Assembly: GCF_009662475.1 (NCBI RefSeq)
Contig: NZ_CP045571.1
Coordinates: 2,168,501-2,232,500, forward strand
Reading direction: 5' to 3'
DNA from: Acidithiobacillus thiooxidans ATCC 19377
GTDB taxonomy: Bacteria > Pseudomonadota > Gammaproteobacteria > Acidithiobacillales > Acidithiobacillaceae
DNA: 64,000 nucleotides
Each line of letters begins with the position of its first letter. Position 1 is the first letter of the stretch. Shown one piece after another: positions 10,621 through 43,313 of the stretch. Below the pieces are notes generated by a model, which was given only the letters and a program-made list of their open reading frames with translations, did no database searches and was not told where the DNA came from. Made by a program: the position numbers and the translations under genes.

Positions 10621-10668
10621 CCCCTGGAGAGGGAACATTTTGGTCGTTGTGATTTTAAGCACGGGTGG

Positions 10669-11427: not shown

Positions 11428-11444
11428 GAGAGACTCCTTGTAAA

Positions 11445-12986
11445 TCACTGGTAGTAGTGGGGGCCACGGATATTGTCGTGGGTCGGGAGGGGGGTCGTGG
11501 GAGAGGGGCTCTCCTGAACTTGATCCATCCCCTGCTTCAGGATGGACTGGATGCTCCGGGTCGTCGGAGAACCGATCTTCAGCGCCCGGGCACAGGCGGC
11601 ATCGAGGCGTTCCTTGCCATAGCGCCGGGAGTAGCTGAGCAGGCCCAGACAGGATCGGTAGCCTTGTTCGGGATGGGCGCGCCGCGCCAGTTGCCAGCGC
11701 ACTACGTCCCGGGTCGCAGGGCCAATGGACAGGGCCCAATTCAGGAGCCGTCCCGGGGACCATTCCCGGTGTTGCTGGTAGGCTTTGGGCAGGTGTTCCG
11801 GGACGGTGCTGTAACGCCCTTGCAGAGTCTGGCGGGGATGGCTGGCCACCCGCTGTTGCTGGTGGAAGATTTCTACCGTCCGGGCACTGACCCGCAGGTC
11901 AACCCGCACACTGACCAGACGATAGGGTACCGAGTAAAAATGCCCCTGATAGGCCACATGGGAGTCGATACTCACCTTGGCGCTTTTCCAGAGCGCATAC
12001 ACATAGTCCTGTGCGGGCAAGGGCTGTAGGGCGGGCCGGTCCAAGGATTCAAAGACGCTTTGGCGGCTGCCGGGCAGGCGCTTGAAGGGCCGTTGATTGA
12101 GGTCCTCCAGCAGGCGGCGGATCTCCCTGTTGAGCTCCATCAGCGAGAAGAACTGGAAGTGGCGTAGACGCGCCAGAATCCAGCGCTCCACCACTTGTAC
12201 GCCGACCTCGACCTTCGCCTTGTCCTGGGGTTTGTAGGGGCGTGTCGGAAGCACTACGGTCCCGTAATGGGTGGCCAGATCCCGATAGCTGCGGTTGATC
12301 TCGGGTTCATAGCGGGAGGCCTTGGTGACCGCCGCCTTGAGATTGTCGGGGACCAGGAGAGTCGGCACTCCGCCGAAGTACCGGAAGGCCCGGACATGGG
12401 AGCCCAGGAAGTCCGGCAGACTCTGGCTCCAGGTGGCCTCGCAGTAGGTATAGCTGGAAGCCCCCAGCACCGCCACAAAAATCTGCGCCTGCCGGATCTC
12501 GCCGGTGCCCGGGTCCACGACCGCAACCGTAGGCCCGGCATAATCAATGAAGAGTTTTTCGCCCGCCACATGCTGTTGCCGCATGCTGGTTTTGAGGCGG
12601 GCTTTCCAGCTACGGTAATGGACACAGAACTGCGCATACTGATAGGTGCGCTCATCCGGATGGGTGGCTACATACTCCTCCCAGAGCAGTTGCAGGGTCA
12701 CGCCCTTGCGCCGTAACTCCGTATGGATCTGCGCCAGGTCGGGCGGGACCGGCCGGGACGCCGGGAGGGGCTGGCGGCGCGGGTTCAGCCGCTGTTCTAC
12801 CTCCACGACCGTCAGCCCCTCCGACAGCGGCCAGCCGATCCGGGCTTCCGTCGCCCGTTGCAGATACTTGCCCACGGCCCCCTTGGACAGCCCGCAGGCC
12901 CGGGCTATTTGCCGCTGGCTACAGCCGGCGGCATGTAATCGCAGGATCTCGATAATCGCTTTCATGGTCATCCTCGGTGTGGGCAT
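11445..12986 (-). CDS. istA: IS21-family transposase IstA
   Basis: The 513-residue protein has an N-terminal helix-turn-helix ([21 protein letters not shown], residues about 18-38) and a DDE integrase-type catalytic core. The first Asp lies in [15 protein letters not shown], the second in [13 protein letters not shown], and the Glu in the [18 protein letters not shown]-like segment. Length and gene order (istA then istB) are typical. The start ATG lies 227 bp inside the right IS end, which is longer than usual because of the expanded terminal repeats. Confidence 0.95.
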
Positions 12987-25595: not shown

Positions 25596-25781
25596 ATGGA
25601 ATCAGTTAAAACATATGGCTCGAACACCAGCCACTATTCTTGGCCGGTTGCGCCAAAAAAGAAGGACCCTACGGAGAGAGCATTCTGGAGAACCGTCGTT
25701 GTATTTGACCAAAGCAGTTTTATCCTGATAAGTTTCGCAATCAAAGCCGCCGACCGCCCATACCATAACGAAAACATGTAA
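25596..25781 (+). CDS. Doubtful 61-residue ORF ahead of the glycosyltransferase
   Basis: The ORF ends in TAATG, overlapping the start of the glycosyltransferase gene, so it could supply translational coupling for a gene with a weak ribosome binding site. Its product has no recognisable features apart from a hydrophobic stretch (FILISFAIKAA). It may be the eroded end of another gene, for example a lost flippase of a gtrA-B-C cluster. Low confidence that it is translated. Confidence 0.25.
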   Translation: MESVKTYGSNTSHYSWPVAPKKKDPTERAFWRTVVVFDQSSFILISFAIKAADRPYHNENM

Positions 25782-26728
25782 TGACTGTTTCCATCATCGT
25801 TCCCTGCCATAATGAATCGGGCAACCTGAAAATCCTTTATGAGCGGGTGAGTGGCATTATGGATGCCTGCGGAGAACCGTGGGGAATGGTCTGTGTGAAC
25901 GATGGCAGCATAGATGACACCCTTCTTCAGCTTATTGAGTTGCATCAGCAGGATTCGCGCATTCAGGTCATAGATTTATCCCGAAACTTCGGAAAAGAAG
26001 CGGCATTGACGGCCGGACTGGATGCTGCCCGGGGTGATGCCGCCATTCCCTTGGATGCAGACCTGCAAGATCCTCCAGAGCTCATCCCTGAACTGCTTGC
26101 CCAATGGCGCGATGGTTATGATGTGGTCAATGCCGTACGTCTATCCAGAGAGGGGGAATCCTGGCTCAAACGCGCTTCAGCCCACTTTTTTTACCGGGTG
26201 ATCAATCGGATGAGCGTCGTAGATATTCCCGCTGACACGGGTGACTTCCGGCTTTTGTCGCGTCCGGTACTGGATGCCTTACAAAGCCTCCAAGAACGTC
26301 GTCGCTTCATGAAAGGACTGTTTGCCTGGGTGGGTTTCCGCAGCACCAATGTTTACTACCACCGTGCGCCGCGACATAGTGGCAAAACCACCTGGAATTA
26401 CTGGAAACTCTGGAATTTTGCCGTCGAAGGAATCACCTCATTCAGCCAGGTGCCCTTGCAGCTCGCCGCTTATCTGGGTTTTATCGTCTCCGGTCTGTCC
26501 TTCATTTATGCTTTATGGCTGATTATCAGCACCCTAGTTTATGGTAATCCTGTCAAGGGATATCCCTCCATGATGGTCACCCTCCTGTTTTTGGGGGGCG
26601 TGCAATTGATGGCGCTGGGTGTCATAGGTGAATATCTGGGAAGAATTTACGAAGAAAGTAAGCATCGGCCAGTTTATTTAGTCAGGAAGGTGTGGGGAAA
26701 AATTAGGGATAGAGAGCGAAATGATTAA
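25781..26728 (+). CDS. GtrB/DPM1-like polyprenyl-phosphate glycosyltransferase
   Basis: The 315-residue GT2 enzyme carries IIVPCHNESGNLKILYERV at the N-terminus, the metal-binding LDADLQDPPELIPEL (about residue 90) and the acceptor-site segment DTGDFRLLSRPV. Two C-terminal transmembrane helices (about 230-295) complete the bactoprenol glucosyltransferase form. Such enzymes load a sugar on undecaprenyl phosphate for later transfer at the periplasmic face. It overlaps the next gene by 8 bp, and the pair is convergent with the pilus operon. Confidence 0.9.
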   Translation: MTVSIIVPCHNESGNLKILYERVSGIMDACGEPWGMVCVNDGSIDDTLLQLIELHQQDSRIQVIDLSRNFGKEAALTAGLDAARGDAAIPLDADLQDPPELIPELLAQWRDGYDVVNAVRLSREGESWLKRASAHFFYRVINRMSVVDIPADTGDFRLLSRPVLDALQSLQERRRFMKGLFAWVGFRSTNVYYHRAPRHSGKTTWNYWKLWNFAVEGITSFSQVPLQLAAYLGFIVSGLSFIYALWLIISTLVYGNPVKGYPSMMVTLLFLGGVQLMALGVIGEYLGRIYEESKHRPVYLVRKVWGKIRDRERND

Positions 26729-28394
26729 GCATTGGCTTATGTGGGGGTTGTTTGCTGTACTTTCGGTTGCAGCACTCATCAGTAGTCTGGGTACAGCGTT
26801 TCAGACGCTTCCTTTGAATCCCGACATGGCGGAAATGGCGCTAATCTATCAAGGTATCGTCCACCACGGTTGGCGTTTCCCATTTACCTGGCGATTCAAC
26901 CAAGATAACCAGTTTCTGAGCCTGCTTCCTTTTGCTCTTATATTCTATGCTTTGGTCGGAGTTTCCGGGGCTTCGATCGTCATTCAGGGTTGGCTTATTT
27001 TTGTTGTGAATGCCATGTTGTCCGGTTTAGTTGTTAAAACAGTAACAAGGTCCTGGATGTGGGGATATTTGGCATGGTTAATTGCACTGCTGGCAGGACC
27101 TATGGCCATAGGTCAGCCTGGGATACTTGCCTATCCTGTATCTCATAATGCGGTCTGGATGTTTGGATTAATTGGCATTATTGCACTTTTAAGATATATA
27201 ATTGATAAGCCAAGGTGGGCATTCCCTACAATGCTGGTATGTGTTTTTACGGGGACGGTATCAGATCCGTGGTTCCAGGCTGCTTACACACTTCCCATAA
27301 TATTTCTTTTGTGGAAGGCACCAGCCCTATTTTCAAGAGACAAAAGCGATTTTAGAATAGCCATTAAATGGATCGTAGCAGCTTATGTGGTAGGAAGAAT
27401 AACTTATTTTATATTTGCAGATTTCAATATTTTCTCGCAGCAATCCATATCGTTTGCATCACCTTCAATAATGTTGAAGCATCTTATCCTGCTAACTAAG
27501 GGTATTGGTACCTATCTATGTCTTTATCCACTGCCAACCAATTTTATCTCATTAGTTGTGTGGTTTATTTTTATATTTTCTGTTCTTGTTGTTTTTTGTT
27601 TTGCTATAATTTATAGAAAATTATTACCAGCAAGTTTTATTATAGTTATTCTATTCGCGTTTTATTCGTCAGCTTTAATGTCTATTTTATTCGTCGTGAC
27701 AAATTTTGCAACAGGCGGATGGGCAATTGAATATTTAATAAACATATTTTATCTTTTTATCTTATCATTGCTAGCGATTGCATATGTATTCGAATCGATG
27801 AATTTTTCGGCACGCATTTTCACGCGCGCTTCCGTCATAGCATACCTTGTTCTTTCTATGACGTTAATTGTTAATGGTGATTTTAGATTCTCTCCAAATT
27901 GGGGGGAAACAAAAAAAGTTGTATACTTTTTGGTAAAAAACCACCTATATTTTGGATATGGGTCTTACTTCGGCGCACAATCACCATTGTTCGCCCTGGC
28001 TAGCGATGGCGCAATAACAGGAAGACATATGGGATCAAATATGGGGCTGCCAATAATCCAGATGGGTAATGGAGACAAAGGTTTCTGGTACAGCGACCCA
28101 TCAAAAGAAACTACACCTCAATTTATCATATTTTCCAAAGCAGACAGCGAGCTGATTTCGATCACAAAAAAATATATTGGGCCGCCAAACCGTGTCATAT
28201 ATTTCCTGAATTACACAATATTCATCTATGATAGAAATTTATTGCCGCACCTATTGGCTAATCGTTGGCTGTCTAATAACAGGTGGCGGCAAATGAATAT
28301 CGAAAGAAATGTAAAAGGAATCAACAAAGTTTGCCGGAGTCTCAACATAAACCCTCTGCCCATAGAGCATGCCTACATAGAGTTTGCACACTAA
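26721..28394 (+). CDS. Polytopic membrane glycosyltransferase-like protein (GtrII type)
   Basis: The 557-residue protein has about eleven or twelve transmembrane helices and a large polar C-terminal part. Early residues LPLNPDMAEMALIYQGIVHH include an acidic pair in the first external loop, as in GT-C enzymes. This fits the serotype-specific partner that moves the sugar from GtrB's lipid carrier to a surface acceptor. The sequence is strikingly AT-rich relative to the trb genes, a sign of foreign origin. The flippase gtrA is not seen. Acceptor unknown: LPS or pilin are both possible. Confidence 0.65.
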   Translation: MIKHWLMWGLFAVLSVAALISSLGTAFQTLPLNPDMAEMALIYQGIVHHGWRFPFTWRFNQDNQFLSLLPFALIFYALVGVSGASIVIQGWLIFVVNAMLSGLVVKTVTRSWMWGYLAWLIALLAGPMAIGQPGILAYPVSHNAVWMFGLIGIIALLRYIIDKPRWAFPTMLVCVFTGTVSDPWFQAAYTLPIIFLLWKAPALFSRDKSDFRIAIKWIVAAYVVGRITYFIFADFNIFSQQSISFASPSIMLKHLILLTKGIGTYLCLYPLPTNFISLVVWFIFIFSVLVVFCFAIIYRKLLPASFIIVILFAFYSSALMSILFVVTNFATGGWAIEYLINIFYLFILSLLAIAYVFESMNFSARIFTRASVIAYLVLSMTLIVNGDFRFSPNWGETKKVVYFLVKNHLYFGYGSYFGAQSPLFALASDGAITGRHMGSNMGLPIIQMGNGDKGFWYSDPSKETTPQFIIFSKADSELISITKKYIGPPNRVIYFLNYTIFIYDRNLLPHLLANRWLSNNRWRQMNIERNVKGINKVCRSLNINPLPIEHAYIEFAH

Positions 28395-28403
28395 AACAGT
28401 GAC

Positions 28404-29918
28404 TCAATTGTTGTTCCAGCACGTCACTGGAGTATTATTGGTGCCAGATCCACCACCAGACCAGTCCCACGCATAATGGTTGCCAACCACGTATGGACCA
28501 CCTACCGGTACAAGTTCATCAGCGCCTTGGCCTTGGTGTCCAGTAATACTACAAAATTCCCATATCCCAAAATTAGAACTGCCGTTGCCAGGGATGGTCT
28601 CAAAACCAACTTGGTTATAACCAGTCATACTCCCCATCGCCTGCCAAGAACTTCCGTTACACATTAAAGCCTGTCCGTTTCCACTGCCACTAGCCGCTAT
28701 TTCACCATAGTCTGAGCAACCCCATCCTTGGTTAGCTGTACCATTAGCGGTGCCTAACCAAGCATCATAGCCAGCATGAATCTGTCCACCCGCATAGAGA
28801 TTCCCCGATTGCGAACTATCACCTGAACTATTAGACCACCAAGCACCATCATAGGTAGAAAAATAATTACCGGAACCAACTCCACCGTTGGCATTAACTA
28901 CCCCACCTACAGAAGCGCTGCCCGCTTGCGAACTATTACCTGCGTTATTAGCCCACCAAGCATTACCACCGTCTACCGTTAGCGCACTCTGCGCATTCAC
29001 ATCGCCTGTACTATTGACGTAACCACCTTGTACGGTAGCAGGTGTCGTGATATTTCCAGACGCGTTAACGTTATCTACTTCATCAATGCTCGCAGGTTCA
29101 CTACCATTCTGGTTCTGCACATAGAATCCACCCGGGGTGCGTACAGCGGCGTTGGAACTATCCCCATAATAATAGTTGTTGCCAATTTGTAGTGCCCCAT
29201 ATTGGCCATTGGGATCCCCAGCGGCCAACGTCTCCGACTGTGCATTGACTTCGTCCGCATTGTTGACGCTGTTCGTCCCCATATTCAGATTCGTCTGCAT
29301 GGTGTTCAACTGCGGCTGGCCAGGGACGGCGACGCGGTAGAGGTAGTCGCTCTGCAACTGGCCGTTGCTGTAGGCCAGTAAAGCCGCGAAATGTCCGGGT
29401 TGAATGTTTTGGTACCCACTGGTAGTCACAGACCAACCGTTATACGACCCACAGGCTTCTCCGCCAGTGCAGCCTGGTACGGCATACTCCCCGCTACCCC
29501 CGCCGATCACACCACCGGACGCCCCGGCAATCTGTGCAACTTGCCCAGCGACTTTAGCCTTTACGGTGTTTCCACCATAGGAGACCACCAATGCCTGCAA
29601 ATTGCCGGAGGTTGGTTGCAATACCTGTACTTCCCAGGTTTGACCAAATGGATTCACCGATGTAAACCCGTTGGGCAAATATCCGGTGCTTTCCAGCATG
29701 GGCACTGTAATGACTGCCGGCGATGATCCGGTAGCAACACTTTCAATAGCCCCGGCATTAGCAGTGATATAGGCTTCTGCTGCCTTTTCCACGCGCGCCA
29801 TCTGGATGGCCGCAGCCGTGGATAGCTCCTGTTGCTGTTGACTGCTCATAACCATGTATACGGCTGGAACCGCGAGCGCGGAAATGATCACGGCGAATAA
29901 TACGGTGATTGGATTCAT
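28404..29918 (-). CDS. pilV: PilV-like minor pilin/tip adhesin of the type IVB pilus
   Basis: In R64-type systems PilV is the pilus-tip adhesin that recognises recipient LPS. This 504-residue protein starts with a pilin-like hydrophobic segment (MNPITVLFAVIISALAVPAVY) nearly identical to that of PilS below, then a coiled N-terminal helix. A long Asn/Gly/Ser-rich domain follows with imperfect internal repeats (WWANNAGNSSQAG and WWSNSSGDSSQSG). The C-terminus has paired cysteines and GSSWQAM. No shufflon inverted repeats were found at the 3' end, so tip switching is not supported. Confidence 0.82.
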   Translation of the reverse strand: MNPITVLFAVIISALAVPAVYMVMSSQQQQELSTAAAIQMARVEKAAEAYITANAGAIESVATGSSPAVITVPMLESTGYLPNGFTSVNPFGQTWEVQVLQPTSGNLQALVVSYGGNTVKAKVAGQVAQIAGASGGVIGGGSGEYAVPGCTGGEACGSYNGWSVTTSGYQNIQPGHFAALLAYSNGQLQSDYLYRVAVPGQPQLNTMQTNLNMGTNSVNNADEVNAQSETLAAGDPNGQYGALQIGNNYYYGDSSNAAVRTPGGFYVQNQNGSEPASIDEVDNVNASGNITTPATVQGGYVNSTGDVNAQSALTVDGGNAWWANNAGNSSQAGSASVGGVVNANGGVGSGNYFSTYDGAWWSNSSGDSSQSGNLYAGGQIHAGYDAWLGTANGTANQGWGCSDYGEIAASGSGNGQALMCNGSSWQAMGSMTGYNQVGFETIPGNGSSNFGIWEFCSITGHQGQGADELVPVGGPYVVGNHYAWDWSGGGSGTNNTPVTCWNNN

Positions 29919-30723: not shown

Positions 30724-31707
30724 TCACCTCCCGCCCGCCGATCCATAAATACGACCCATGGACATGGATCGGTTTTTCTGCGCTTCAATATCCTGATTGA
30801 TGGCCGCCATATTACCGTCCCGAATTTTCATGCGGGTTGGCTCATCCTCCACAAAAAACGATTGCACATGCAAAATACTTTGCGGGCTTTTACCGTTAGC
30901 GACTCCCCCACCAGGCATTCCACCCCCGGGCATCGCCCCCCCAGCGGGCTCCTTATCAATCCGTAAGGTCACGACCCCGCGCAAACATTGTGCTAAACCA
31001 TCAAACCCCGATAGCATGCCCATTTTCAAAATGGCCTGTTGCGGGTTATCCGCATGTAACGTACTGATCACCAACATTCCGCTGGCAGCCGCTAACCCGG
31101 CTGTTTTGGCAGCAGACTGTTCCCGAATTTCACCGATATAAAAGGTATCCGCACCGCTGCGCAGGGTGTCCATAAATACACGCTGTACTTCGGTGTCATC
31201 ATCAATCTCTTCCTGATAGCATTGACCATTGCCGCGCGACCCTTGCAAATCGTATTCCACCGGATTTTCTGCCGTCCATGTGAATCCCCCAATGCGTTCC
31301 AGACGATCCATCAACAAGGCACATCCCAATGTCGTTTTGCCCATGCCTGGGCCACCGGCAAACAGCAGTAGACCAGATCGCATCCGCGCATCCCTTAACG
31401 TCTGCACTAAAGGGATCGGTAAACCAATGTCATCCAGTTTGCGTAAAATACTGGCAATACGGCGTGCTATAAAAACAGAGCCATAAGGAGTATCCCGTTT
31501 TTGCACCCGTAAATTCATACCCCCAAAAACCATACGAAAGCGATGCGAATTATGCGCTTCCATCTGGTTTCTCAATGCCTGCAGTTCTCCCCAATAGGTC
31601 TCCGGCACAGAAACGAGCCGGAGATCATCGGAAAACCTTTTGTACCGACTGGCGGCGGGGTCTTGCTCCACCGCCAAATCCGCAAACGCAAGGTCAGACA
31701 ATCCCAT
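30724..31707 (-). CDS. TraJ/PilT-type secretion ATPase (second pilus ATPase)
   Basis: The 327-residue protein is a GspE-superfamily ATPase with Walker A FAGGPGMGKTTLGCALL (about residues 117-133), Asp box WTAENPVEYD, Walker B DTFYIGEIREQSAAK and His box LVISTLHADN. It lacks the long N-terminus of PilQ and resembles PilT/PilU retraction motors and the R64 TraJ protein. It is encoded between pilS and the small membrane protein. A role in pilus retraction or in coupling pilus and transfer is inferred. Confidence 0.85.
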   Translation of the reverse strand: MGLSDLAFADLAVEQDPAASRYKRFSDDLRLVSVPETYWGELQALRNQMEAHNSHRFRMVFGGMNLRVQKRDTPYGSVFIARRIASILRKLDDIGLPIPLVQTLRDARMRSGLLLFAGGPGMGKTTLGCALLMDRLERIGGFTWTAENPVEYDLQGSRGNGQCYQEEIDDDTEVQRVFMDTLRSGADTFYIGEIREQSAAKTAGLAAASGMLVISTLHADNPQQAILKMGMLSGFDGLAQCLRGVVTLRIDKEPAGGAMPGGGMPGGGVANGKSPQSILHVQSFFVEDEPTRMKIRDGNMAAINQDIEAQKNRSMSMGRIYGSAGGR

Positions 31708-31710: not shown

Positions 31711-32193
31711 TTAGGAATTATTACCAAACGTAAAGTATACACTGCTGGCACCGCCACTACATGCACTTACGGCCTGAGCGCCAGTCGGGGCAGAGTTGCT
31801 GTTACCAATCGAACTCCCATTGACGGAAGTGTCGATATCGGAAATCTGTGTCACCAGCTTCTGACAGGCCGTTGGAGAGAGCGTCAAACCAGTCATCTCC
31901 ACATCGAACTGACTGGCAGGCAAACCCGCTCCACTGCTTGCCAAGGCAAACGTGCCACCCAAAGGCGTACTTGTCTGGATGCCTTTGGGGATGATATTGG
32001 ACGCATTAGTGCTGATCCCCGCATAATCGCCCTGTACGCCGTACACTTCCTGCGCGTTGCCCACAATGGTCATAATATCTTGCGCGGCATTGGAGGTATT
32101 ACCTGACGCCAGCAAGCCCAAACCAAAGTAGATGCCCGCCGCAAGACCGGCGATAACGATAATTACTGCAAATAATACGGCTATTGGATTCAT
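31711..32193 (-). CDS. pilS: PilS-like major prepilin
   Basis: The 160-residue protein starts at MNPIAVLFAVIIVIAGLAAG, a hydrophobic N-terminal helix as in type IVB pilins, followed by the pilin helix (SNAAQDIMTIVGNAQEVYG). The globular domain has the C-terminal disulfide pair (PTACQKLV and VSACSGGASS). Good AAGGAG site at the ATG. The first residues match PilV, which suggests that both are handled by the same assembly machinery. No separate prepilin peptidase was recognised in the window. Confidence 0.88.
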   Translation of the reverse strand: MNPIAVLFAVIIVIAGLAAGIYFGLGLLASGNTSNAAQDIMTIVGNAQEVYGVQGDYAGISTNASNIIPKGIQTSTPLGGTFALASSGAGLPASQFDVEMTGLTLSPTACQKLVTQISDIDTSVNGSSIGNSNSAPTGAQAVSACSGGASSVYFTFGNNS

Positions 32194-32265
32194 CAAATTC
32201 TCCTTAGTTGTTTTGCGTCACATTAAAACCATGCGACACAACGCGTTAAAAAACAAACCTACATT

Positions 32266-33369
32266 TTATCCCGTATGCGCAGAAGCCATCATCACGTTCT
32301 GCAAATCAAACACGCCGAATACCACCAGCAAAATAAGCAGGTTGACGCCAATATTGGCAAACAGTGCCATAATCCGCACAGTACCCATCACTTGTCGTTC
32401 GATATCTTCCAGCCATTCTTCACCAAGACTCCGAAGCAGTTTGGCAAAGTCTCCTGACCCCGAAAACGCGGACAGGTCATCCGCAAGGATACGATCCGGG
32501 AAACCCATTTCGCCTTCAATAAAAGCCTGGCCCAGTTCGCGTCCATTTCGCATACGTTGTTGTGCATCCAGCAATCGGTCACGCAACCATGGACGGGCAT
32601 ATTTGGCTTGCAATCCCAACGCATCCGTAGCGGTAATTCCCGACCCCACAAGGCGCGAAAATCCAATCATCCATTGAGCGCCAATGATCATGCGATAAAT
32701 GCTCCACGGAGGGATATTTTCTACATATCGGCGGCCATGCTGTGACCAGAAAGGTAAAGAGACAATGGTGATCACCAATCCCACAATCATCAATAAAAAA
32801 ACCACTGCAGACCATGGACTTTGTGCGGCTGCAGCCATGGGTAACAAAGCGCGGGCAAGTGTCGGCCAGGTATTCGGATTGGACATCAACTCCATAGGGG
32901 GCACCATTTTCGTGCCAACGATATAAACGAGGTAAACACCAAGTCCACTCATAACAATAGGATCGATGGCCTCGCCAACAATTTTCCCCATCATCCGCCC
33001 GATAATCCCTTGTCCTTCGATGGCACTTCGTAATCCACTCGCTAAATCACCCGATAATTCGCCCGCCTGAATAATGGACAAATCCGCTGTCGGGGCCCAT
33101 CCACGCAACGCTTGTGAAAGGGTTTCTCCGTTGGCGAGACGATCCCCGATTTCTTGCAAAGCCAACCGATCCGGGTCAAAAGCGGCCATAAGACCAGAGC
33201 CACCCTGTAAGGACTTCTGCTGAAGCAACCGGGTTGTTGCCGCACGTACCGGAATGCCGTTATTCAGATAGACCGCTAACCGTCGATAAAAGGCGCTCCG
33301 CTTTTTCCCGCCCCACAGGGCTCGGGCCATACGGGTCAACTGTTCCTGTATCCAATAAGGGATTTCCAT
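32266..33369 (-). CDS. pilR: PilR/GspF-like inner-membrane platform protein
   Basis: The 367-residue protein has two GspF-type cytoplasmic helical domains (about residues 20-120 and 240-330) and three hydrophobic segments (about 130-155, 180-210 and 340-362). Typical motifs are LAVYLNNGIPVRAA, GETLSQALRGW and the repeat version RNGRELGQAFIEGEMGF. It organises the base of the pilus and contacts PilQ, with which it overlaps by one base. Confidence 0.9.
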   Translation of the reverse strand: MEIPYWIQEQLTRMARALWGGKKRSAFYRRLAVYLNNGIPVRAATTRLLQQKSLQGGSGLMAAFDPDRLALQEIGDRLANGETLSQALRGWAPTADLSIIQAGELSGDLASGLRSAIEGQGIIGRMMGKIVGEAIDPIVMSGLGVYLVYIVGTKMVPPMELMSNPNTWPTLARALLPMAAAAQSPWSAVVFLLMIVGLVITIVSLPFWSQHGRRYVENIPPWSIYRMIIGAQWMIGFSRLVGSGITATDALGLQAKYARPWLRDRLLDAQQRMRNGRELGQAFIEGEMGFPDRILADDLSAFSGSGDFAKLLRSLGEEWLEDIERQVMGTVRIMALFANIGVNLLILLVVFGVFDLQNVMMASAHTG

Positions 33370-35138
33370 CAGACGTCATCCTCCGTCAACTCGCGCAGTT
33401 CAGTCGGACGAGGCGGAATAGGGCCCAGCACATCCACAATAAAACGGGGGTCAGTTAATCCTTTGAGAATCTTGAGTACCCCATGGGCTTCCATGGATAT
33501 CTCCGCATCACGGCGAGACGCGTATAATTTTCTGGCGGGCATTGGCCCATCCTTGACCATGGCGACCAATAAATCATCGTCCGTAGGAATCACCTGAGCC
33601 ACAACAGCCCGCCCCAAAGACCCCGTATGATTACAGTGACCGCATCCAGGGCCCGTCATCCGGATGCCCGACAAGGGGAAAATGGCACTTTCCCAGGTCA
33701 AAAGGTTTTCCCAGCTTTCTTTATCTAAACCAGATTTCAGGAGTACATCCGGATTCGCTGGCTGTGCGCAGTACGGGCAAACCAATTTCACCAAGCGTTG
33801 TGCAATGAGCGATGACAACATTTTTGGGTCTTGCAGGTAAAAGCCATCCACGCCCATACCCACTAAGCGTTGCGCAATCATAAACGGGTCCGATACGTGC
33901 AGCGTCGTCCATACCTGATGCCCCGTGATCGAAGCATTCACCGCCTCTTTTGCGGTTTCCAGCCCGCGAATTTCGCCGACCATAATAATATCCGGGTCTT
34001 GCCGTAAAGCTGTCTTCAACTTGCCTGCAAATGCCCGGTTTTTTTCCTCATCCGTGTTGGCGTTGGCGATTTTGTACTGCCAGACATAATCGGACTGAAA
34101 GACGTATTCCACAGGATCTTCAATGGTGATGATCCGTACTCCGTGCCGAATACGCAGGATGGTATTAATCATTTGCGCGAGCGTGGTCGATTTTCCCGAT
34201 CCTGTAGGGCCGGTGAACGGGTTAATTCCCATCGTTTGGCGCGATAACAGGTGGAGGATCCGTAATTGACGTGGCGAATAGCCCAGTGCTGCCAATAGAT
34301 CAACATCTGGACTTTGCTTTTCTAAACGATAGAGTAGTCGGATAGCCAGGTTCATACCGTCGTGCAAGGGCGCACGTGCCAATCGGAGCCCGGTTAATCC
34401 CATGTCTTCGCCGTTTTCTCCACGGAGTAGCGATGGGTTAACGATGACCGCATGTTGATCTTCCGTTTCTTTGACTTGGGCATCGGACACGGCCGCCATC
34501 CCTTGAAACATGGCACGAATCATTTGTGCCCCTTCAGTCTGTGGCACTTGATAACGATCTTCCACTTCGTTTTGTACCCGAAACTGCACCTGTAAATATC
34601 CACTACCGTTCATGTTTTCGCGTAGTGTAAGATGAATATCACTCGCTTTTTCGGCCGCTGCCAACACCACCATTCGCCGTACACTGCGCACAGCCGACAG
34701 GTTCATGTCATCGCTATCGGCTATTCCGGACTTGATTTGTGCCAAGGTTTGCATGTCACACAAATCAAGCTGAATGTCTACGCCATCCCTGCGGGCTTCC
34801 GCCAGCCAGCTTTGCACGACCATCTGGTTTTGACGCCCGGACAATACGTGCAGGGTGCGCCCTATAAGCACTGCAAATTCTTGCATAGCGGAAGGTATCT
34901 CGCGCAGATTCAAATCGTTGGCGAGGTTGGAAAGAGTAGAATCTATGATTTGTTGAGAAACAAACTTTTTTCCTACCAGGATTTCACCCAGTTTTTTCTC
35001 TGGAGTCTTCGCCTGTTCCTGCAACGCTATCTCTAGCTGTTGTCGAGAAATGATGCCATCTTCTACCAAAATGTCCCCAATCCTTTTTTTTGCGGACGTT
35101 TTGCTGTTCTCATTCCTGGAACGAATCTGTAAAGCCAT
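33369..35138 (-). CDS. pilQ: PilQ/GspE-type pilus assembly ATPase with MshEN c-di-GMP-binding domain
   Basis: The 589-residue ATPase drives pilus extension. Residues 18-75 carry a two-part MshEN (T2SSE_N) motif: RIGDILVEDGIISRQQLEIA followed by KLGEILVGKKFVSQQI. In characterised relatives this motif binds cyclic di-GMP with high affinity. The C-terminal motor has Walker A PTGSGKSTTLAQMIN, Asp box IITIEDPVEYVF, Walker B PDIIMVGEIRGLETA, His box HQVWTTLHVSD and a zinc-binding tetracysteine (VCPYCAQ and GPGCGHCNHTG). An EAL-domain protein is encoded in the same operon, which supports second-messenger control. Confidence 0.93.
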   Translation of the reverse strand: MALQIRSRNENSKTSAKKRIGDILVEDGIISRQQLEIALQEQAKTPEKKLGEILVGKKFVSQQIIDSTLSNLANDLNLREIPSAMQEFAVLIGRTLHVLSGRQNQMVVQSWLAEARRDGVDIQLDLCDMQTLAQIKSGIADSDDMNLSAVRSVRRMVVLAAAEKASDIHLTLRENMNGSGYLQVQFRVQNEVEDRYQVPQTEGAQMIRAMFQGMAAVSDAQVKETEDQHAVIVNPSLLRGENGEDMGLTGLRLARAPLHDGMNLAIRLLYRLEKQSPDVDLLAALGYSPRQLRILHLLSRQTMGINPFTGPTGSGKSTTLAQMINTILRIRHGVRIITIEDPVEYVFQSDYVWQYKIANANTDEEKNRAFAGKLKTALRQDPDIIMVGEIRGLETAKEAVNASITGHQVWTTLHVSDPFMIAQRLVGMGVDGFYLQDPKMLSSLIAQRLVKLVCPYCAQPANPDVLLKSGLDKESWENLLTWESAIFPLSGIRMTGPGCGHCNHTGSLGRAVVAQVIPTDDDLLVAMVKDGPMPARKLYASRRDAEISMEAHGVLKILKGLTDPRFIVDVLGPIPPRPTELRELTEDDV

Positions 35139-35139
35139 A

Positions 35140-35850
35140 TCAATGCCCTCCTTGCGGGTTAGGAATCATTCCTGGTGGCGGAACCATAAGATTCGATGGG
35201 GGAGCCCCATTAGACGGAGAAAAAGGTGGCGGAGAATAGGACCCGACAGGATTACCAGAGGATGTGCTCCCTTGTTGCGCGGTGTATCCGCCTGACATCA
35301 TCAACAAAACTGGCGTCTTCCCTTTATGACTGGCAAGCACCCCTTGCGGGCCGATATGCTGTATAACCCAGTGCCCAACTCGATTCCCGGTAAATACCGG
35401 TAGCACTCCGCCGTTCGGTAAGGCTAATGTCGCCTGATAACGGCCTTGCGCACCGGAGATAGACAGCACGCGCGGGAGATTGGATATATGAGAAGCGGTT
35501 GATGTCCCCACCTGCTGTATGGAGGGCATTATGGGCGGGATAGATGACTGCGGGAACGCGGATGCGGAAGGGTTTGATGGCTTATTGCTGCCTGCCTTCT
35601 TCCCGGAAAGAACATCCGCAATTTCTTTTTTTAACTTGGCGACTTCCAGTTGAGCCTGGAGCACGGGTATCTGCGACTGTACAGACGCCAGTGACTGAAC
35701 CGTTTCCGCTGTGTTATTGGGCGCAACCGTTTCTGGTGAACCGTTCACCGATGAAGCGGATAAAAGCGATGAAGCCGATGCCATCCCACTTCCACACAAC
35801 AATAACACCCCAAAGAATGGGATATTCCAGACTGCTTTACGGTTGATCAT
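35140..35850 (-). CDS. pilP: PilP-like periplasmic pilus protein
   Basis: The 236-residue protein has a signal sequence (MINRKAVWNIPFFGVLLLCG), a glutamine/leucine coiled-coil (VQSQIPVLQAQLEVAKLKKEI) and a small beta domain (VLSISGAQGRYQATLALP then GGVLPVFTGNRVG). The C-terminus is proline-rich. PilP proteins link the inner-membrane platform with the secretin. It overlaps pilO by 14 bp in the conserved pilN-O-P-Q order. Confidence 0.82.
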   Translation of the reverse strand: MINRKAVWNIPFFGVLLLCGSGMASASSLLSASSVNGSPETVAPNNTAETVQSLASVQSQIPVLQAQLEVAKLKKEIADVLSGKKAGSNKPSNPSASAFPQSSIPPIMPSIQQVGTSTASHISNLPRVLSISGAQGRYQATLALPNGGVLPVFTGNRVGHWVIQHIGPQGVLASHKGKTPVLLMMSGGYTAQQGSTSSGNPVGSYSPPPFSPSNGAPPSNLMVPPPGMIPNPQGGH

Positions 35851-37237
35851 GCATAACTCCTTGAGGAATGACTTTGTCCTTGTCCGATGCGTGAATAGGC
35901 TTCAATGGCAAGGCGACAGCGGGACGATGCATCATGTCAACCGGTCTGTTGCGTACGTACAAATTCCCATACATGGTGACCTCTTGCGCTTCGTTTTTTT
36001 CTTTTTTGCTGGACATGACCGGATACACCATGCGCGTCCAGCGTAACCCGGGTAAGGTCTCCCAGGTTCTGTTCATGGCCAGCGCATCCAGTGGGCCTTG
36101 CATGGACACCGAGAACACTTTCCACAACTTTTTCTGGGCGTCCGCGATCGGTGGAGTCTTCGCCCCGGGCAATCGGGAAACGGGAGAAACTGAAGACGAA
36201 AGAGAGACGTGGATAGCCACATGCGTAAGTTGCGCCATGCCATACAACTTTCGCAAAGCCACAGAAGACCGTAACAAAACACCATTTCTGGATGCGGGGA
36301 TCGAAAGTCCGTTTATAAACTGATCAATTTCTGATCCCTGATGGGATATGGCCCCGGGAGGCGATACCAACATCGTGGCACCGGGCGACCACTTCCAGGT
36401 TAGATTAAAGTGTTGCGAGGATAAATGCGCACCACCCGGCGCTTGTTGGCAAGATACGGCACTTAACAGCCATCCATGATCAGAAAGAGGGATCCCAGAC
36501 ATGCCATGTAGGCATCCCTCCAAAAAAGTAAACGGTCCAGCAAATTGGAGCCACGGAACGTTTGCTTTGGCTTTCTGTTCCATCATAGCCCGTTCAATCG
36601 CCAAGCGATGCATCAATGCGGCCCGCTTCGCCTGCTCTATTTGCTCATTGACATAATTCAAGTAAATAACCCCGCCAATGACAGCCGTTCCAACCACGCC
36701 GCTATAAATCAGAACCGGCAACCAAGTATTCTTGCGAATATCTCGTATGGGCTTTTGTTTTACCGATTTAGACACCAATTCAAGCAGTTTTTCGGTAGTA
36801 TCGTTGACCGTAAGACGCCATGCGTCATAAGACGCATGTTCCCGCATCCTTTTATCAACGGCGTCATAATCTCCGATAAAATCCCCGTCCGGAAGCACTT
36901 CATAGTTTTCTCGAACGGCGACATACCAGTATCGACCATCACCCAGATCGAAAACGCCCTGCCATGGCTCCTGCAAAACTTCGGCTACTGCAGCAGCCAA
37001 TGAATACATCTTCCCTTTGAATGGTTTCCCTTCATGACGGCCATCTTCATTCAAAACAGGTTCCGTAAACCCTGATTGAATGGCCCCCGCTTGCGTTCGC
37101 CGCACAGCGACCATGAAGTCTTTATTGCGGGCGCCATCTTTTAATATCTTTTTGGATGGATAGCGATCCTCATGCCGCCAATACATGCCCGCCACAAAAA
37201 CGCGGCGATCTCCGGGCAACCGAATAAGTGTCCCCAT
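35837..37237 (-). CDS. pilO: PilO-like pilus assembly protein
   Basis: The 466-residue protein has a cytoplasmic N-terminal domain (residues 1-165, RLPGDRRVFVAGMYWRHED), a transmembrane helix at about 172-195 (WLPVLIYSGVVGTAVIGGVI), a short coiled coil, and a large periplasmic domain with two cysteines (LEGCLHGMSG and SCQQAP). This matches PilO2 proteins of type IVB pili, which join the inner membrane to the secretin. Sits directly after pilN with one base between. Confidence 0.85.
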   Translation of the reverse strand: MGTLIRLPGDRRVFVAGMYWRHEDRYPSKKILKDGARNKDFMVAVRRTQAGAIQSGFTEPVLNEDGRHEGKPFKGKMYSLAAAVAEVLQEPWQGVFDLGDGRYWYVAVRENYEVLPDGDFIGDYDAVDKRMREHASYDAWRLTVNDTTEKLLELVSKSVKQKPIRDIRKNTWLPVLIYSGVVGTAVIGGVIYLNYVNEQIEQAKRAALMHRLAIERAMMEQKAKANVPWLQFAGPFTFLEGCLHGMSGIPLSDHGWLLSAVSCQQAPGGAHLSSQHFNLTWKWSPGATMLVSPPGAISHQGSEIDQFINGLSIPASRNGVLLRSSVALRKLYGMAQLTHVAIHVSLSSSVSPVSRLPGAKTPPIADAQKKLWKVFSVSMQGPLDALAMNRTWETLPGLRWTRMVYPVMSSKKEKNEAQEVTMYGNLYVRNRPVDMMHRPAVALPLKPIHASDKDKVIPQGVMHDQP

Positions 37238-37238
37238 T

Positions 37239-38909
37239 TTAGAGAATCCGCGCTGTGATCACGATGGCGATCATCTGTTTGGAAGTGCTGGCGTCAGCAC
37301 CGCCGCCCAGCAACGGCATATACGGACTGCCAACCCCATTGTGCGTCACATTGCTGCCTGACTGAGAGAACCCGGTAAGCAGTAGTGTCTGCCCTGGCTT
37401 TAAGCTGACGGACTGCTGAAAGGTGCTGCTATCCACCGTGGGTACCTGAATACTGTTTCCACCAGACGAGATGGTGTCCAGCGAAACCAGGTTGCTAATG
37501 GTCATGTTCATCCCTAACAACACGCGACCGTTATCAATGCGTGGCAAGAACATAGCCGTAAAGCCTGTCGTCACAGTGCCCGGGACCAGTCCACTGGTGG
37601 CTCCCACGTTAGCGGTGCTCGTCGTGCTGTTCTCAGCAAGGTAGGAGGTCTGTTGAGCCACCTGAATCGGCGCCGGCTGACCGTTCATGCTCATAGCAGA
37701 GCGACTGAACACCTGGGTAACATTGCCCAAAGTAGACAACGCCTGTACCGCCACCTGACTGCCGCTAGTCTGACTCAATGCACCATTGGCAGTGGACAAC
37801 ACGCTTGCACCCAACGACATGGGCGACACATTGCCTGTAGGCGCAGGAGGCGCCACACCTTGCAAGCTGACGCCATATTGCTTGCCGAGGCTGTTGAATA
37901 TTCCGGAAAGGTTTAATCCATAGTTTTGCTCGTTATTAATCTGCACATTGTACACTTGCACAGAGATAATCACCTGACGCGATAATTGCCGGGTCAAGCT
38001 GTGTACCCATTGCCGTACACGATCGACCTGTGGTGGTGTCCCTGTCACCGTCAATGTTCCCGTAGAGCTATCCGCGAACACGCGCGCCGAGCCGCCGGCT
38101 ACTGTTTGGGCAGCCTTCTCCAGGTTCCCCCAGACGTTGACCTTGGACGTATTCTCTATGTCCGTAGTGCCAGTGGAAGTATCTGATTGAGAAGACCCGC
38201 TAATTCCAGCGCTTCCACCATTGATCGCGGACATTCCAGTCGTTGCCCCACCCGTACTGCTGGAACCTCCACTACTGTTTGCGCCGGCGGCAGCGATAAT
38301 AGAGCCGCTGGAATCGGTAACCCATGACAAGGCTGGTATGGAAAACGTTCTTGTTTCCGTGTAAAAAATGTGTACCGCGCCTCCGTAGTATTTCCACCAG
38401 AGACCGTCTTTTGCGGTAATATAGCGCAACAACCCCGCCACGCTGCCGTTCCAGTTGAGAGAAATGCCGGTCCTTGCGTAACCAGAAGCCCCATTAGATG
38501 CTCCACCAAAAGAGGGGATACCAGCAGACGTGCTAGGTAATGGCGGGAGCATTCCTGGTGCCCCCGTCGCACTTTTCTGGGACATTAAATTATCAATATG
38601 TACAGGGACGCCGGTTAGCTGACTGATCCGCGCCCCGATTTCACGAATGGTGAGCGGGTTAGAGGAGACCAGCGTAATGGATTGCTTCAATACAGCAGGC
38701 ACCCTATGCCGTACACCCACTACCGAGCCCATCAGATACGGGGTGTTGACCATGCTCACTACGGCTGGCTGCTTGGGCGGCTGATAGCTGGCGATGGACT
38801 GTTCAGCCTGCGTCTGGTCTACATGCGCCTGATGAAACGTCGCGCATCCCGCCAAGGTAAACGGGAGAATGGCTGCCGCAACTGCCATCTTCAATAAATG
38901 ATTACGCAT
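37239..38909 (-). CDS. pilN: PilN outer-membrane secretin lipoprotein
   Basis: The 556-residue lipoprotein has lipobox LAGC (Cys22), N-domains with REIGARISQLTGVPVHIDNL and TLTVTGTPPQVDRVRQWVHS, and a C-terminal secretin beta-barrel domain (about 370-555). That domain includes GNSIQVPTVDSSTFQQSVSL and KPGQTLLLTGF. It forms the outer-membrane ring for the pilus. A Ser/Gly-rich loop is present between the N-domains. Overlaps the EAL gene by 8 bp. Confidence 0.92.
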   Translation of the reverse strand: MRNHLLKMAVAAAILPFTLAGCATFHQAHVDQTQAEQSIASYQPPKQPAVVSMVNTPYLMGSVVGVRHRVPAVLKQSITLVSSNPLTIREIGARISQLTGVPVHIDNLMSQKSATGAPGMLPPLPSTSAGIPSFGGASNGASGYARTGISLNWNGSVAGLLRYITAKDGLWWKYYGGAVHIFYTETRTFSIPALSWVTDSSGSIIAAAGANSSGGSSSTGGATTGMSAINGGSAGISGSSQSDTSTGTTDIENTSKVNVWGNLEKAAQTVAGGSARVFADSSTGTLTVTGTPPQVDRVRQWVHSLTRQLSRQVIISVQVYNVQINNEQNYGLNLSGIFNSLGKQYGVSLQGVAPPAPTGNVSPMSLGASVLSTANGALSQTSGSQVAVQALSTLGNVTQVFSRSAMSMNGQPAPIQVAQQTSYLAENSTTSTANVGATSGLVPGTVTTGFTAMFLPRIDNGRVLLGMNMTISNLVSLDTISSGGNSIQVPTVDSSTFQQSVSLKPGQTLLLTGFSQSGSNVTHNGVGSPYMPLLGGGADASTSKQMIAIVITARIL

Positions 38910-39582
38910 TCTTCTCTCCCTCTTCGTCCGTCATGATTCCTTTCTTTGCTTCCATGTCGTTGCTCTTGTCCTTTTGGGTCCAGAACCATCCCTGCCCCAG
39001 GTGCGCACCCGCTGCCAGGGCCAGCCGGTAGTCGGCGTCATCTTCCACCCATTCCACGACCACGCGGGCGCCGTTGTGGGACAGGTGCTGACAAAGTCCC
39101 CGCAGATATTCCGGACCCTTGTCGCGAACCGACTGAAAATAGGGTCCGTCAATCTTGCAAAAGCTCGCCTTGATGCTACCTGCGCGGCCCAATCCATCGA
39201 CACCGCCGCCAGCGCCAATGTCGTCGATGGCAATACGGAAACCCAGCCTCTTGAAAAAATTGAGCTTCGCCAGCACATCCACGAGTTTCTCGTCGTGAAA
39301 CGATTGCTCCGTCCACTCGATGACGATCCGGCCGGCCTGTTCACGCAGGGCGCGAACGGACCTGGAGATGTGCGGGTCCAGCAATTGCTGCCCATCCAAG
39401 TTCAAAAACAGCAATCCAGACAAATCCGGCAGTAGCGCCGGTATTTCCCGCGCGAGAAAGCCATACCAGTCGCGCCATGCCTGTTCGTCCCAGTCAGGAC
39501 AGCATTTATCTCCAGCCAGCAGTTCGTAACCGACAGGCTTTCCAGTCAGCAGGTCCACGATGGGTTCCAGACGGTATTTCAT
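38902..39582 (-). CDS. EAL-domain c-di-GMP phosphodiesterase in the pil operon
   Basis: The 226-residue single-domain protein keeps the EAL catalytic set. The EAL box is YELL (Glu19 kept), with Asn in LFLNLDGQQLLD, Glu in IVIEWTEQ, the DD pair in AIDDIGAGGG, Lys in FCKIDGPYF, Glu in VVEWVED and Gln in GQGWFW. It therefore probably hydrolyses c-di-GMP to pGpG. No GGDEF or membrane segment is present. It is co-translated with a small membrane protein upstream and pilN downstream. Together with the MshEN domain of PilQ it suggests local control of pilus extension. Confidence 0.87.
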   Translation of the reverse strand: MKYRLEPIVDLLTGKPVGYELLAGDKCCPDWDEQAWRDWYGFLAREIPALLPDLSGLLFLNLDGQQLLDPHISRSVRALREQAGRIVIEWTEQSFHDEKLVDVLAKLNFFKRLGFRIAIDDIGAGGGVDGLGRAGSIKASFCKIDGPYFQSVRDKGPEYLRGLCQHLSHNGARVVVEWVEDDADYRLALAAGAHLGQGWFWTQKDKSNDMEAKKGIMTDEEGEKNA

Positions 39583-39773
39583 AGTATGTTGTCCTCGATG
39601 ACGGTGATGCCGTAATCCAGCAGCAGGGTTTGCAACTGTTTTTCCAGCGCAGAAAAGTCCATGAGTACCATCGCGGCAGCTATGGTCAGCGCGCTACCTA
39701 ACCGCCCCGCCCACACCCACACCCACAACGGCACGGAAAACCGGATCCGGCGCAAGGCCGAGATGACCGTCAT
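39579..39773 (-). CDS. Small membrane protein between pilT and the EAL gene
   Basis: The 64-residue protein has a basic N-terminus, one transmembrane segment (VPLWVWVWAGRLGSALTIAA through AMVLM) and a short tail. It overlaps both neighbours by 4 bp (ATGA junctions), so it is surely in the operon. It could tether or regulate the EAL protein, but this is inferred from position alone. Confidence 0.55.
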   Translation of the reverse strand: MTVISALRRIRFSVPLWVWVWAGRLGSALTIAAAMVLMDFSALEKQLQTLLLDYGITVIEDNIL

Positions 39774-40471
39774 GGGTGCTCCCCTAAACGCGCGAGTACC
39801 TGCCGATAATGGGCGAGCACCGCTGGCACATACGCCTGCGTCTGGCGGAACGGCGGGATGCGATACCCTGCATTCCTGACCGCCTGCCCGCCTGCGTTGT
39901 AACCGGCCAGCACCAAAGGCCAGCTATGGAACTCCAAAGCCAGGTGCCGTAAATACCGTGCACCAGCCAGCATTGCGGCCTCCGGATTGAACGGCGATCC
40001 CCGTCCGTAATGCGTCCAGGTTGCCGGGATGAACTGCATCAGCCCTTGCGCACCGGCAGGGCTGACCGCATTCGGGTCAAAACCGCTTTCCTGCGCGGCC
40101 ACCGCCAGCAACATGCTCGCAGGAACCCCCGTCTCTGCCTGCGCCTGGTTGGCGTACTGGACGATGCGCTGCGGAATGGATGGCAAGGCAGAGGGGTAAA
40201 TAAAATGCCCCTGTGCGCCCAATGACGGTGTACCGTCCCCCTGATACATCCGCTCTACGGCCAGAATCCAGGTTCCCGCCGCAATGCCCCAGCAGCGGTG
40301 TTTACGCACAGTAGCAACGGGAAAGCCGTAGGCACCCAGTACCGGCAGCCATTGTGCGGGAACCCCCATCGGGCCTATGCCACTGGCATGCTTTGCAGCC
40401 GTCATGACTCGTTCGATGGCCGGAACAGGGACGTGATAGGCGGTGGACGCTTGGGCTATGCAGGCAAGCAT
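39770..40471 (-). CDS. pilT: PilT-like lytic transglycosylase
   Basis: The 233-residue protein starts at MLACIAQAST with AGGAGG 8 nt upstream. It contains an SLT domain (about residues 110-230) with the catalytic Glu in LLAVAAQESGFDPNAVSPAG, then GLMQFIPATW and VLAGYNAGGQAVRNAG. In R64-like systems PilT is this peptidoglycan-cutting enzyme, not the retraction ATPase of the same name. The N-terminal 60 residues (YHVPVPAIERVMTAAKHASG) resemble a degenerate second copy of the fold. Confidence 0.9.
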   Translation of the reverse strand: MLACIAQASTAYHVPVPAIERVMTAAKHASGIGPMGVPAQWLPVLGAYGFPVATVRKHRCWGIAAGTWILAVERMYQGDGTPSLGAQGHFIYPSALPSIPQRIVQYANQAQAETGVPASMLLAVAAQESGFDPNAVSPAGAQGLMQFIPATWTHYGRGSPFNPEAAMLAGARYLRHLALEFHSWPLVLAGYNAGGQAVRNAGYRIPPFRQTQAYVPAVLAHYRQVLARLGEHP

Positions 40472-40567
40472 GTCATAGCCTCCTGCGGAAAATTGGCGGG
40501 GGTACATCCTTTTTCGTACACTGAGGTCCCATTTAACCATGTTGCACGAATCAAAGGAGTAATCCCC

Positions 40568-42258: not shown

Positions 42259-42453
42259 CTAATGACCGCCTTTGTTGGCGGTATGGAATACCGTGTGGAC
42301 AGTTGTGCCATTCGCGGCCAATGGCACTAGCACGCCTCCTGCTTCACGAATTTCTCCCAAAAAAATACAATCCGGGTCCGTGCGTAAAGCTTTGCGCAAC
42401 CCTTCGGCAAAAACATCTGCCGTCATATCTTCGATTTTTTCTGAAGATTTCAC
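42259..42453 (-). CDS. Chimeric 64-residue ORF: ATPase fragment joined to PilL tail copy
   Basis: The first ~38 residues (VFAEGLRKALRTDPDCIFLG then EIREAGG) match the Walker B region of PilQ/PilT-type secretion ATPases (compare FAGKLKTALRQDPDIIMVGE in PilQ). The last ~20 (LAANGTTVHTVFHTANKGGH) match the PilL C-terminus encoded just upstream (LSANGANVHAVFHIANK). It has no Walker A, so no ATPase activity is expected. The GTG start overlaps the pilL stop. It looks like a recombination product that stays open; it may be translated but is probably non-functional. Confidence 0.6.
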   Translation of the reverse strand: MKSSEKIEDMTADVFAEGLRKALRTDPDCIFLGEIREAGGVLVPLAANGTTVHTVFHTANKGGH

Positions 42454-43313
42454 TCCCCGCCTCCTGCACCGTTAATGACCACCGTTTTGTTGGCGATATG
42501 GAAAACCGCATGGACGTTCGCACCGTTCGCGGACAACGCCTGGATCACCTGGCTGACCGCCTTCTGAAAATCTCCGCTGAACGTCGTGGTGTTCGGCACC
42601 TGCCAGTCCTCCGGCACCTGCCAGACCACTGTCCAGCCGGATTGTTTGGCCCACTTCTGAAGATCGGGCAGAATGAGATCACCACGATTCAAAATAAATA
42701 CCGGGGTAACACCAGACAGGGAAGGCGCTGCCACAGGCACCACAGGCCCTTCATGAAAATGGGCGGGCAATGAAGACTGGCTATTCCATGACGTGTATCC
42801 TTTGGTATCCAAAGGTTTCACTGCAGGTTCGGGCCTGACCCGCAAAAGCAGCGCTTGATGCGGCCAGTTCACCGTTCCGATCAATCCCGACTGGCCCAGG
42901 ACTATCCGTAAAGGCACCGTCCATGGCTGATTCCTGGCCTTCCAGGTGACAGCAATCCCGCCGGATATGCCGGGTTTTGCATAGACTTTCCAGCCTTCCG
43001 GCAGGATGAGGCGCAGGGCGTCCTTGATATTCATACCTTTGCCAAAGGAACTGTTTGTCTGCACGAATCCCGTTCCCTCCTGGGACAGGGTCGGCAACGG
43101 GGTCCAGGAAACATAACCATCCGGCAGGGTCGTATCCTGCGGGCTTGCAGCCTGCGAATGGCTTGCGCCCTGCAAGGGGCTTGCAGCCGGTGTCTGCAAT
43201 GGAACATCCACATGGAAAACCCCGGCCATGGCAGTCTGGCAGCCGCCAGACAGGCAGCATCCAGCCACCATCAGAGTGGTTAAAACCCGGATCCTTTGTT
43301 TCAGCGTGATCAT
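42450..43313 (-). CDS. pilL: PilL/TcpQ-like pilus lipoprotein
   Basis: The 287-residue lipoprotein (possible lipidated Cys19 or Cys25 in VAGCCLSGGC) has a linker of 18-bp-encoded blocks (ASPLQGASHSQAASPQ) and two TcpQ-like domains. The first is around residues 85-165 (MNIKDALRLILPEGWKVYAK) and the second around 200-287 (ILPDLQKWAKQSGWTVVWQV). PilL/TcpQ proteins chaperone the secretin in type IVB pili. It is the first pil gene, overlaps the acyltransferase-like gene by ATGA, and has a GCTATACC box 30 nt upstream. Confidence 0.82.
   Translation of the reverse strand: MITLKQRIRVLTTLMVAGCCLSGGCQTAMAGVFHVDVPLQTPAASPLQGASHSQAASPQDTTLPDGYVSWTPLPTLSQEGTGFVQTNSSFGKGMNIKDALRLILPEGWKVYAKPGISGGIAVTWKARNQPWTVPLRIVLGQSGLIGTVNWPHQALLLRVRPEPAVKPLDTKGYTSWNSQSSLPAHFHEGPVVPVAAPSLSGVTPVFILNRGDLILPDLQKWAKQSGWTVVWQVPEDWQVPNTTTFSGDFQKAVSQVIQALSANGANVHAVFHIANKTVVINGAGGGE
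43135..43188. repeat. 18-bp units in the pilL linker
   Basis: The run cctgcgggcttgcagcctgc, then gaatggcttgcgccctgcaa and ggggcttgcagcc, shares units with 16733-16768 and 50670-50705. Encoded residues are of the ASPLQG type. Confidence 0.82.

Follow-up and report, generated by a model that had tools for sequence, protein, structure and literature searches.

Can a conjugative element time the extension of its mating pilus by a signal of its host, and carry aboard the enzyme that erases this signal? The question is raised by a 64,000-nucleotide stretch of the genome of Acidithiobacillus thiooxidans ATCC 19377 (contig NZ_CP045571.1, positions 2,168,501 to 2,232,500; "the window" below means this whole stretch). 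Its R64-like type IVB pil operon encodes an extension ATPase, PilQ, with a putative domain for binding cyclic di-GMP (c-di-GMP), and also a stand-alone EAL protein, a predicted c-di-GMP phosphodiesterase. Our best reading of this arrangement is a local switch through which c-di-GMP governs extension of the mating pilus, and we hold it tentatively, with doubt slightly outweighing belief. The switch has support in the sequence from the binding motif, the full catalytic set, the location of both genes in one operon and their co-occurrence in a second, diverged operon, while we infer that PilQ binds the ligand, that the EAL protein is active, that the effect is local and in which direction it goes. 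The features on which the argument turns are the following:

33369-35138, minus strand: pilQ, extension-type T2SSE ATPase of the R64-like type IVB pilus, 589 amino acids (aa) (PF00437, 201 bits; BfpD and PilB structures, E 1e-39 to 1e-43)
34923-35084, minus strand: tandem MshEN_N motif of PilQ, residues 19-72 (NF053729; structure 5htl; shuffles)
38902-39582, minus strand: stand-alone EAL gene, predicted c-di-GMP phosphodiesterase, 226 aa (PF00563, catalytic residues, AlphaFold2 (AF2) model)

The initial annotation had placed pilQ and the EAL gene at these coordinates and on this strand, which is correct, and had reported a two-part MshEN motif in PilQ. This motif is indeed there. An MshEN domain has two 24-residue motifs of the pattern RLGxx..G..L...L..Q, joined by a short spacer. 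The 53-position NCBIfam model NF053729 (c-di-GMP_motif, MshE-related) matches PilQ residues 19-70 with 59.4 bits (E 2e-16) against a curated cut-off of 38 bits, a score comparable with those of other family members, and in a phmmer comparison residues 16-78 match MshE of Vibrio cholerae (5htl, E 4e-6). The tandem motif scores 17 of 22 positions with a spacer of 6, and the best of 300 shuffles scores 12. Pfam's own MshEN model has no match in PilQ. That the motif arose by chance is rejected on the strength of the shuffles together with the curated model.

Alignment to the key MshEN positions, the check by which the motif was to be judged, gave a divided answer. Motif I is complete (R19, I20, G21, L24, V25, G28, I29, I30, L35, L39 and Q42), with L10→I as its sole change. 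Motif II (K49, L50, G51, L54, V55, K58, F59, V60, I65, L69 and L72) has the changes R38→K, turn G→K (Lys58), L54→I and Q61→L, so that Leu72 stands at the position of the terminal Gln; both LG/IG pairs and the third Gly are kept. Published work on relatives (PMC5013675, PMC12002112, PMC11731258) has found that the domain withstands K in place of R and I in place of L, that the third Gly is indispensable and that binding is weaker once Gln is lost. Since motif II has lost its terminal Gln and turn Gly, the affinity of PilQ for c-di-GMP is uncertain, and what the sequence supports is an MshEN-type, putative c-di-GMP-binding domain.

The same changes can be taken to mean that the domain is a degenerate structural relic that binds no c-di-GMP, and that the neighbouring EAL protein is unrelated to PilQ activity. 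XpsE and GSPII-A of Thermus lost binding by changes of this kind (PMC5013675, PMC12002112), and in GSPII-A measurable binding was restored only with both Gln residues (PMC12002112). The poor single-sequence AF2 model of PilQ 1-150 (mean predicted local distance difference test score, pLDDT, 55.7) also fits a relic; its helix order (15-26, 32-40, 46-55 and 62-75) fits MshEN_N, and a Foldseek search with it returned nothing useful. We used neither the model nor its helix order as evidence. A relic is hard to reconcile with a curated-model score on a par with other family members, with an intact motif I and intact LG/IG pairs, and with a 100% identical copy in Acidithiobacillus sulfurivorans that has no decay. 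Moreover, the L→I change costs only about 2.4-fold in affinity, and K or L can stand for R (PMC12002112, PMC11731258). We therefore regard the relic as improbable.

The EAL gene had been described as catalytically complete and as lying in the same operon, and both statements stand. Its product scores 83.1 bits with the Pfam model against a cut-off of 31.3. None of the metal and catalytic residues is missing (E20, N61, E89, E92, D120, D121, K143, D145, E177, E180 and Q197), and each is invariant in 13 family members spanning 27-79% identity. The AF2 model (pLDDT 90.7) has the full EAL fold and aligns to 4q6j over 203 residues (Z 21.8, root-mean-square deviation 2.6); its matches to solved EAL domains, some of them from active enzymes, extend over about 200 residues. 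The ratio of nonsynonymous to synonymous substitution rates (omega) against orthologues is about 0.1-0.2, and the gene is under purifying selection. By these features the protein is a catalytically complete predicted c-di-GMP phosphodiesterase, and a degenerate, inactive EAL is rejected on the intact catalytic residues. Members of this family with at least 40% identity were found only in Acidithiobacillus among the 84,980 species genomes searched; there was no match among 72,556 plasmids and none in IMG/VR.

The protein has no sensor domain. Stand-alone EAL proteins of this kind can serve as adaptors, and FimX works on type IV pili. The EAL protein might, like FimX or LapD, be a c-di-GMP-binding adaptor that touches pilus proteins and has no useful enzyme activity. 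In FimX and LapD, however, the catalytic residues are degenerate, whereas here all are kept across the whole range of identity in the family, and we consider an adaptor role very improbable.

If PilQ and the EAL protein act together, does the motif travel with the EAL gene? The pil operon of A. ferrivorans DSM 22755 has diverged from that of the window (PilN 35% and PilQ, in its ATPase part, 31% identical) and contains an EAL gene whose product is 79% identical. Its PilQ has a 59-residue c-di-GMP motif (NF053729, 47.7 bits; 5htl, E 7e-4) at residues 213-271, in the stretch that separates the N-terminal domain from the ATPase domain, and none at the N-terminus. Because of this different place, a separate acquisition of the motif is probable. 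In two Acidithiobacillaceae operons that have no EAL gene embedded, PilQ is 67-68% identical to that of the window but starts without the motif; for one of them (G017) "without EAL" means none inside the operon, as a GGDEF-EAL gene (L039, 26-2815, minus strand) lies about 2 kb beyond its pilV. The comparison also covered ten R64-like operons from a plasmid and from other Pseudomonadota; their PilQs lack the motif, and no EAL gene lies within about 10 kb. The PilQ of the metagenome-assembled genome KUB_Bin07 (L029) lies beyond the contig end. The expectation that the same pair would be found in other type IVB pil operons was thus borne out in part: two diverged operons have both motif and EAL, and A. 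ferruginosus has an EAL gene and a PilQ without the motif.

A separate observation concerns the conjugative plasmid pTK9001 of Thioalkalivibrio K90mix (L156, 1282-2034 and 8998-10470), where a stand-alone EAL gene lies 7 kb upstream of a GspE-like ATPase gene with the motif (57.2 bits). This is a hint that the pairing may recur.

In numbers, the motif is present in two of three PilQs from operons with EAL versus none of 12 from operons without an embedded one (Fisher p = 0.029), an association that rests on three EAL operons and a p value that ignores kinship, the operons being not phylogenetically independent. This limit is the first of several points that weigh against a local switch. The assembly that contains the A. 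ferrivorans contig carries a flag for 7% contamination. The A. ferruginosus operon (L031 and L041) keeps the EAL gene with a motif-less PilQ, and EALs of the same family occur in type IV secretion system regions without a pil operon (L036, with TrbL, VirB4, VirB11 and relaxase). In motif II, which is partly degenerate at positions that matter in solved relatives, the turn Gly is gone, and so is the Gln that forms bonds to ribose and phosphate. Lastly, no diguanylate cyclase or PilZ gene was found within the window, so that the c-di-GMP must come from chromosomal enzymes. In favour of the switch, the genome has 24 GGDEF domains that could supply it, none of them in the window. For the local control circuit proposed in the initial annotation, this leaves both parts present and comparative support that is modest.

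Several of these points suit the main rival explanation, in which an active EAL protein lowers c-di-GMP throughout the host, with effects on motility, dispersal or donor state that do not pass through PilQ, and its place in the pil operon reflects only co-expression with transfer genes. In its favour, the A. ferruginosus operon has the EAL gene and no motif in PilQ. EAL relatives 43-47% identical are found in transfer regions of other elements, among them the pilus-less region L036, another element of the window's genome has one at L037, and c-di-GMP enzymes with global effect are known from other mobile elements (PMC6416229, PMC3842833). The EAL module also recombines independently, as in A. 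sulfurivorans RW2, where a 72% identical EAL lies amid pil genes 99% identical to those of the window. What this explanation leaves unaccounted for is why the motif occurs, at two different places, in PilQs of operons that bear the EAL gene, and why all 12 PilQs from operons without it lack the motif. We judge it unlikely on balance, and still the most serious of the alternatives.

The local switch, the reading we prefer, would work as follows. In V. cholerae, c-di-GMP-bound MshE extends the pilus and low c-di-GMP favours retraction (PMC7096442). By analogy, c-di-GMP from host diguanylate cyclases would bind the MshEN-type domain of PilQ and favour extension, and the operon-encoded EAL protein would hydrolyse c-di-GMP near the pilus machine. 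When the operon is on, the signal would fall and extension would stop or be limited; the second, PilT-like ATPase may then retract the pilus. If this is true, a transferable element uses a biofilm signal of the host to time when its mating pilus extends and retracts, with its own eraser aboard, and conjugation is tied to c-di-GMP at the pilus motor itself, not via gene regulation. The PilQ motif and the EAL gene, present in two independent operons, form a concrete pair for testing.

What kind of operon and element surround this pair? The pil genes form one run on the minus strand with small gaps or overlaps, in the order transglycosylase, EAL, pilN, pilO, pilP, pilQ, pilR, pilS, second ATPase, further pil genes and pilV. 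Besides the features listed above, it includes:

42450-43313, minus strand: pilL-like gene with TcpQ domain (PF10671, 82 bits)
39770-40540, minus strand: lytic transglycosylase (R64 PilT-like), upstream border of the EAL module (PF01464, 91 bits)
37239-38909, minus strand: pilN secretin (PF00263, 50 bits)
35837-37237, minus strand: pilO, PF06864, marker of R64-type pil operons (214 bits)
35140-35850, minus strand: pilP (synteny; homologues in related operons)
32266-33369, minus strand: pilR platform protein, T2SSF (PF00482, 60 bits)
31711-32196, minus strand: pilS major pilin (PF08805, above cut-off)
30724-31707, minus strand: second T2SSE/PilT-like ATPase, candidate retraction motor (PF00437, 59.8 bits; ComGA and PilT models 70 and 66 bits, both under their cut-offs)
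28404-29918, minus strand: pilV-like tip protein (comparison with the A. sulfurivorans operon)

A PilO of PF06864 and a TcpQ domain in PilL identify the operon as R64-like type IVB, and the PilN secretin, PilQ, PilR, PilS and the lytic transglycosylase are found in the same run. Homologues of VirB6, VirB8, VirB9, VirB10, VirB4 and VirB11 together with ParA/ParB lie beside it at 1961-21962, and for this reason the operon is assigned, from its genes alone, to a conjugative element. The element is fragmented by insertion sequences. At 7806-12986 its virB-like transfer region is split by a type I restriction-modification gene and an IS21-type transposase pair (IstA/IstB). Just past pilV, in the opposite direction (25781-28394, plus strand), lie genes for a family 2 glycosyltransferase and a 557-aa membrane protein, which have counterparts in the A. 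sulfurivorans element and may serve surface or pilin modification. From pilO to pilS the proteins of the window and of A. sulfurivorans are 100% identical, PilQ included. PilV begins like its A. sulfurivorans counterpart (L028, 11061-12467) and diverges from it in the C-terminal part (73% identity overall), a case of tip-protein swapping.

The EAL gene belongs to a larger module that the initial annotation missed and that is mostly deleted in the window. It lies between the transglycosylase gene and pilN in five Acidithiobacillus pil operons, and it is the one part of the module kept in all five. The order in three related operons (A. ferrivorans DSM 22755, A. sulfurivorans RW2 and KUB_Bin07) is transglycosylase, a partner of about 255 aa coupled to the EAL gene downstream of it, EAL, a protein of about 70 aa and pilN. 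The small protein is present between EAL and pilN in four of the five operons. The partner belongs to no known family. It has no match in plasmids, IMG/VR or the Protein Data Bank, and in 369 genomes drawn from the class it was found only in the genome of the window itself. Less similar partner-EAL pairs (L037, L034 and L035) occur in the family outside these operons and also in the genome of the window. The pair at L037 (9673-11457; own genome C1:1529291-1531039), with 45% and 37% identity, lies in another mobile region near a transglycosylase gene and a PilT/TraJ-like ATPase gene. Two traces of the module remain in the window:

39585-39662, minus strand: partner-gene remnant, last 26 codons (tblastn)
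38899-38917, minus strand: EAL-pilN junction, where the gene for the 70-aa protein of relatives is absent (junction sequences, alignment)

The remnant was found with residues 228-253 of the A. sulfurivorans partner (61.5% identity, E 4e-5), and a small open reading frame, whose end it forms, runs into the start codon of EAL with an ATGA overlap. This frame, of about 64 codons (39579-39780, minus strand), has a hydrophobic stretch, FSVPLWVWVWAGRLGSALTIAAAMVL, and may have arisen by chance or encode a new small membrane peptide. On the other side, relatives have GGAGAAAG at each end of the gene for the 70-aa protein, and the junction in the window, from which this gene is missing, looks like a deletion between repeats of this type. 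The coupling of EAL to pilN seen earlier is real, with an overlap of 8 bases; given such a deletion the overlap is a derived state, probably a scar. The EAL gene alone has outlasted the loss of both its neighbours. In the related operons the partner and the small protein, coupled to EAL, would probably regulate it, and in the window, where they are lost, EAL would be under operon expression alone. A wider proposal, which we find possible and put forward with clearly less confidence than the switch itself, is that the three-gene cassette of partner, EAL and small protein in acidophile mobile elements controls mating-pilus dynamics via c-di-GMP, and that the pilus ATPase gained an MshEN domain on at least two occasions, each time at a different site, as a reader for the signal erased by the cassette.

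How does this locus compare with known systems? SXT/R391 with its diguanylate cyclases, PAPI-1 with PvrR and the integrative and conjugative elements (ICEs) of Acidithiobacillus (PMC6416229), like the window, have c-di-GMP enzymes beside conjugation genes. The Acidithiobacillus ICE enzymes were reported in 2019, with an EAL listed for ICEAcaTY2 and type IV pilus and conjugation genes named as targets (PMC6416229), and PAPI-1 has an EAL regulator beside its type IVb mating pilus (PMC3842833). These ICE reports name PilZ, FleQ or unspecified effectors, and none names a receptor domain of a mating-pilus ATPase paired with an operon-embedded EAL; in the open literature, subscription papers being outside the search, we found no report of this combination.

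The R64/IncI thin pilus and the PAPI-1 type IVb pilus share with the window the set PilL-N-O-P-Q-R-S-V, a PilO of PF06864 and a PilV with variable C-terminus. In the R64-like operons sampled outside Acidithiobacillus, PilQ has no MshEN-type motif and the operon contains no EAL gene, a scan with the model that did not extend to R64 and PAPI-1 themselves.

In PilF of Thermus thermophilus, K or L for R is compatible with strong binding, and the spacer of its GSPII-C is as long as that of the window PilQ. Unlike the window, PilF has three tandem domains and serves a chromosomal type IVa pilus, and its GSPII-A, which lost both Gln residues, does not bind (PMC12002112). MshE of the V. cholerae MSHA pilus is likewise an extension ATPase with an N-terminal tandem 24-residue motif, and high c-di-GMP favours MSHA extension (PMC5013675, PMC7096442). 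The window differs from it in having an R64-type conjugative pilus on a mobile element, a motif II without the second Gln and a phosphodiesterase-type gene in the operon, and in A. ferrivorans the domain stands inside the ATPase protein and not at its N-terminus as in MshE.

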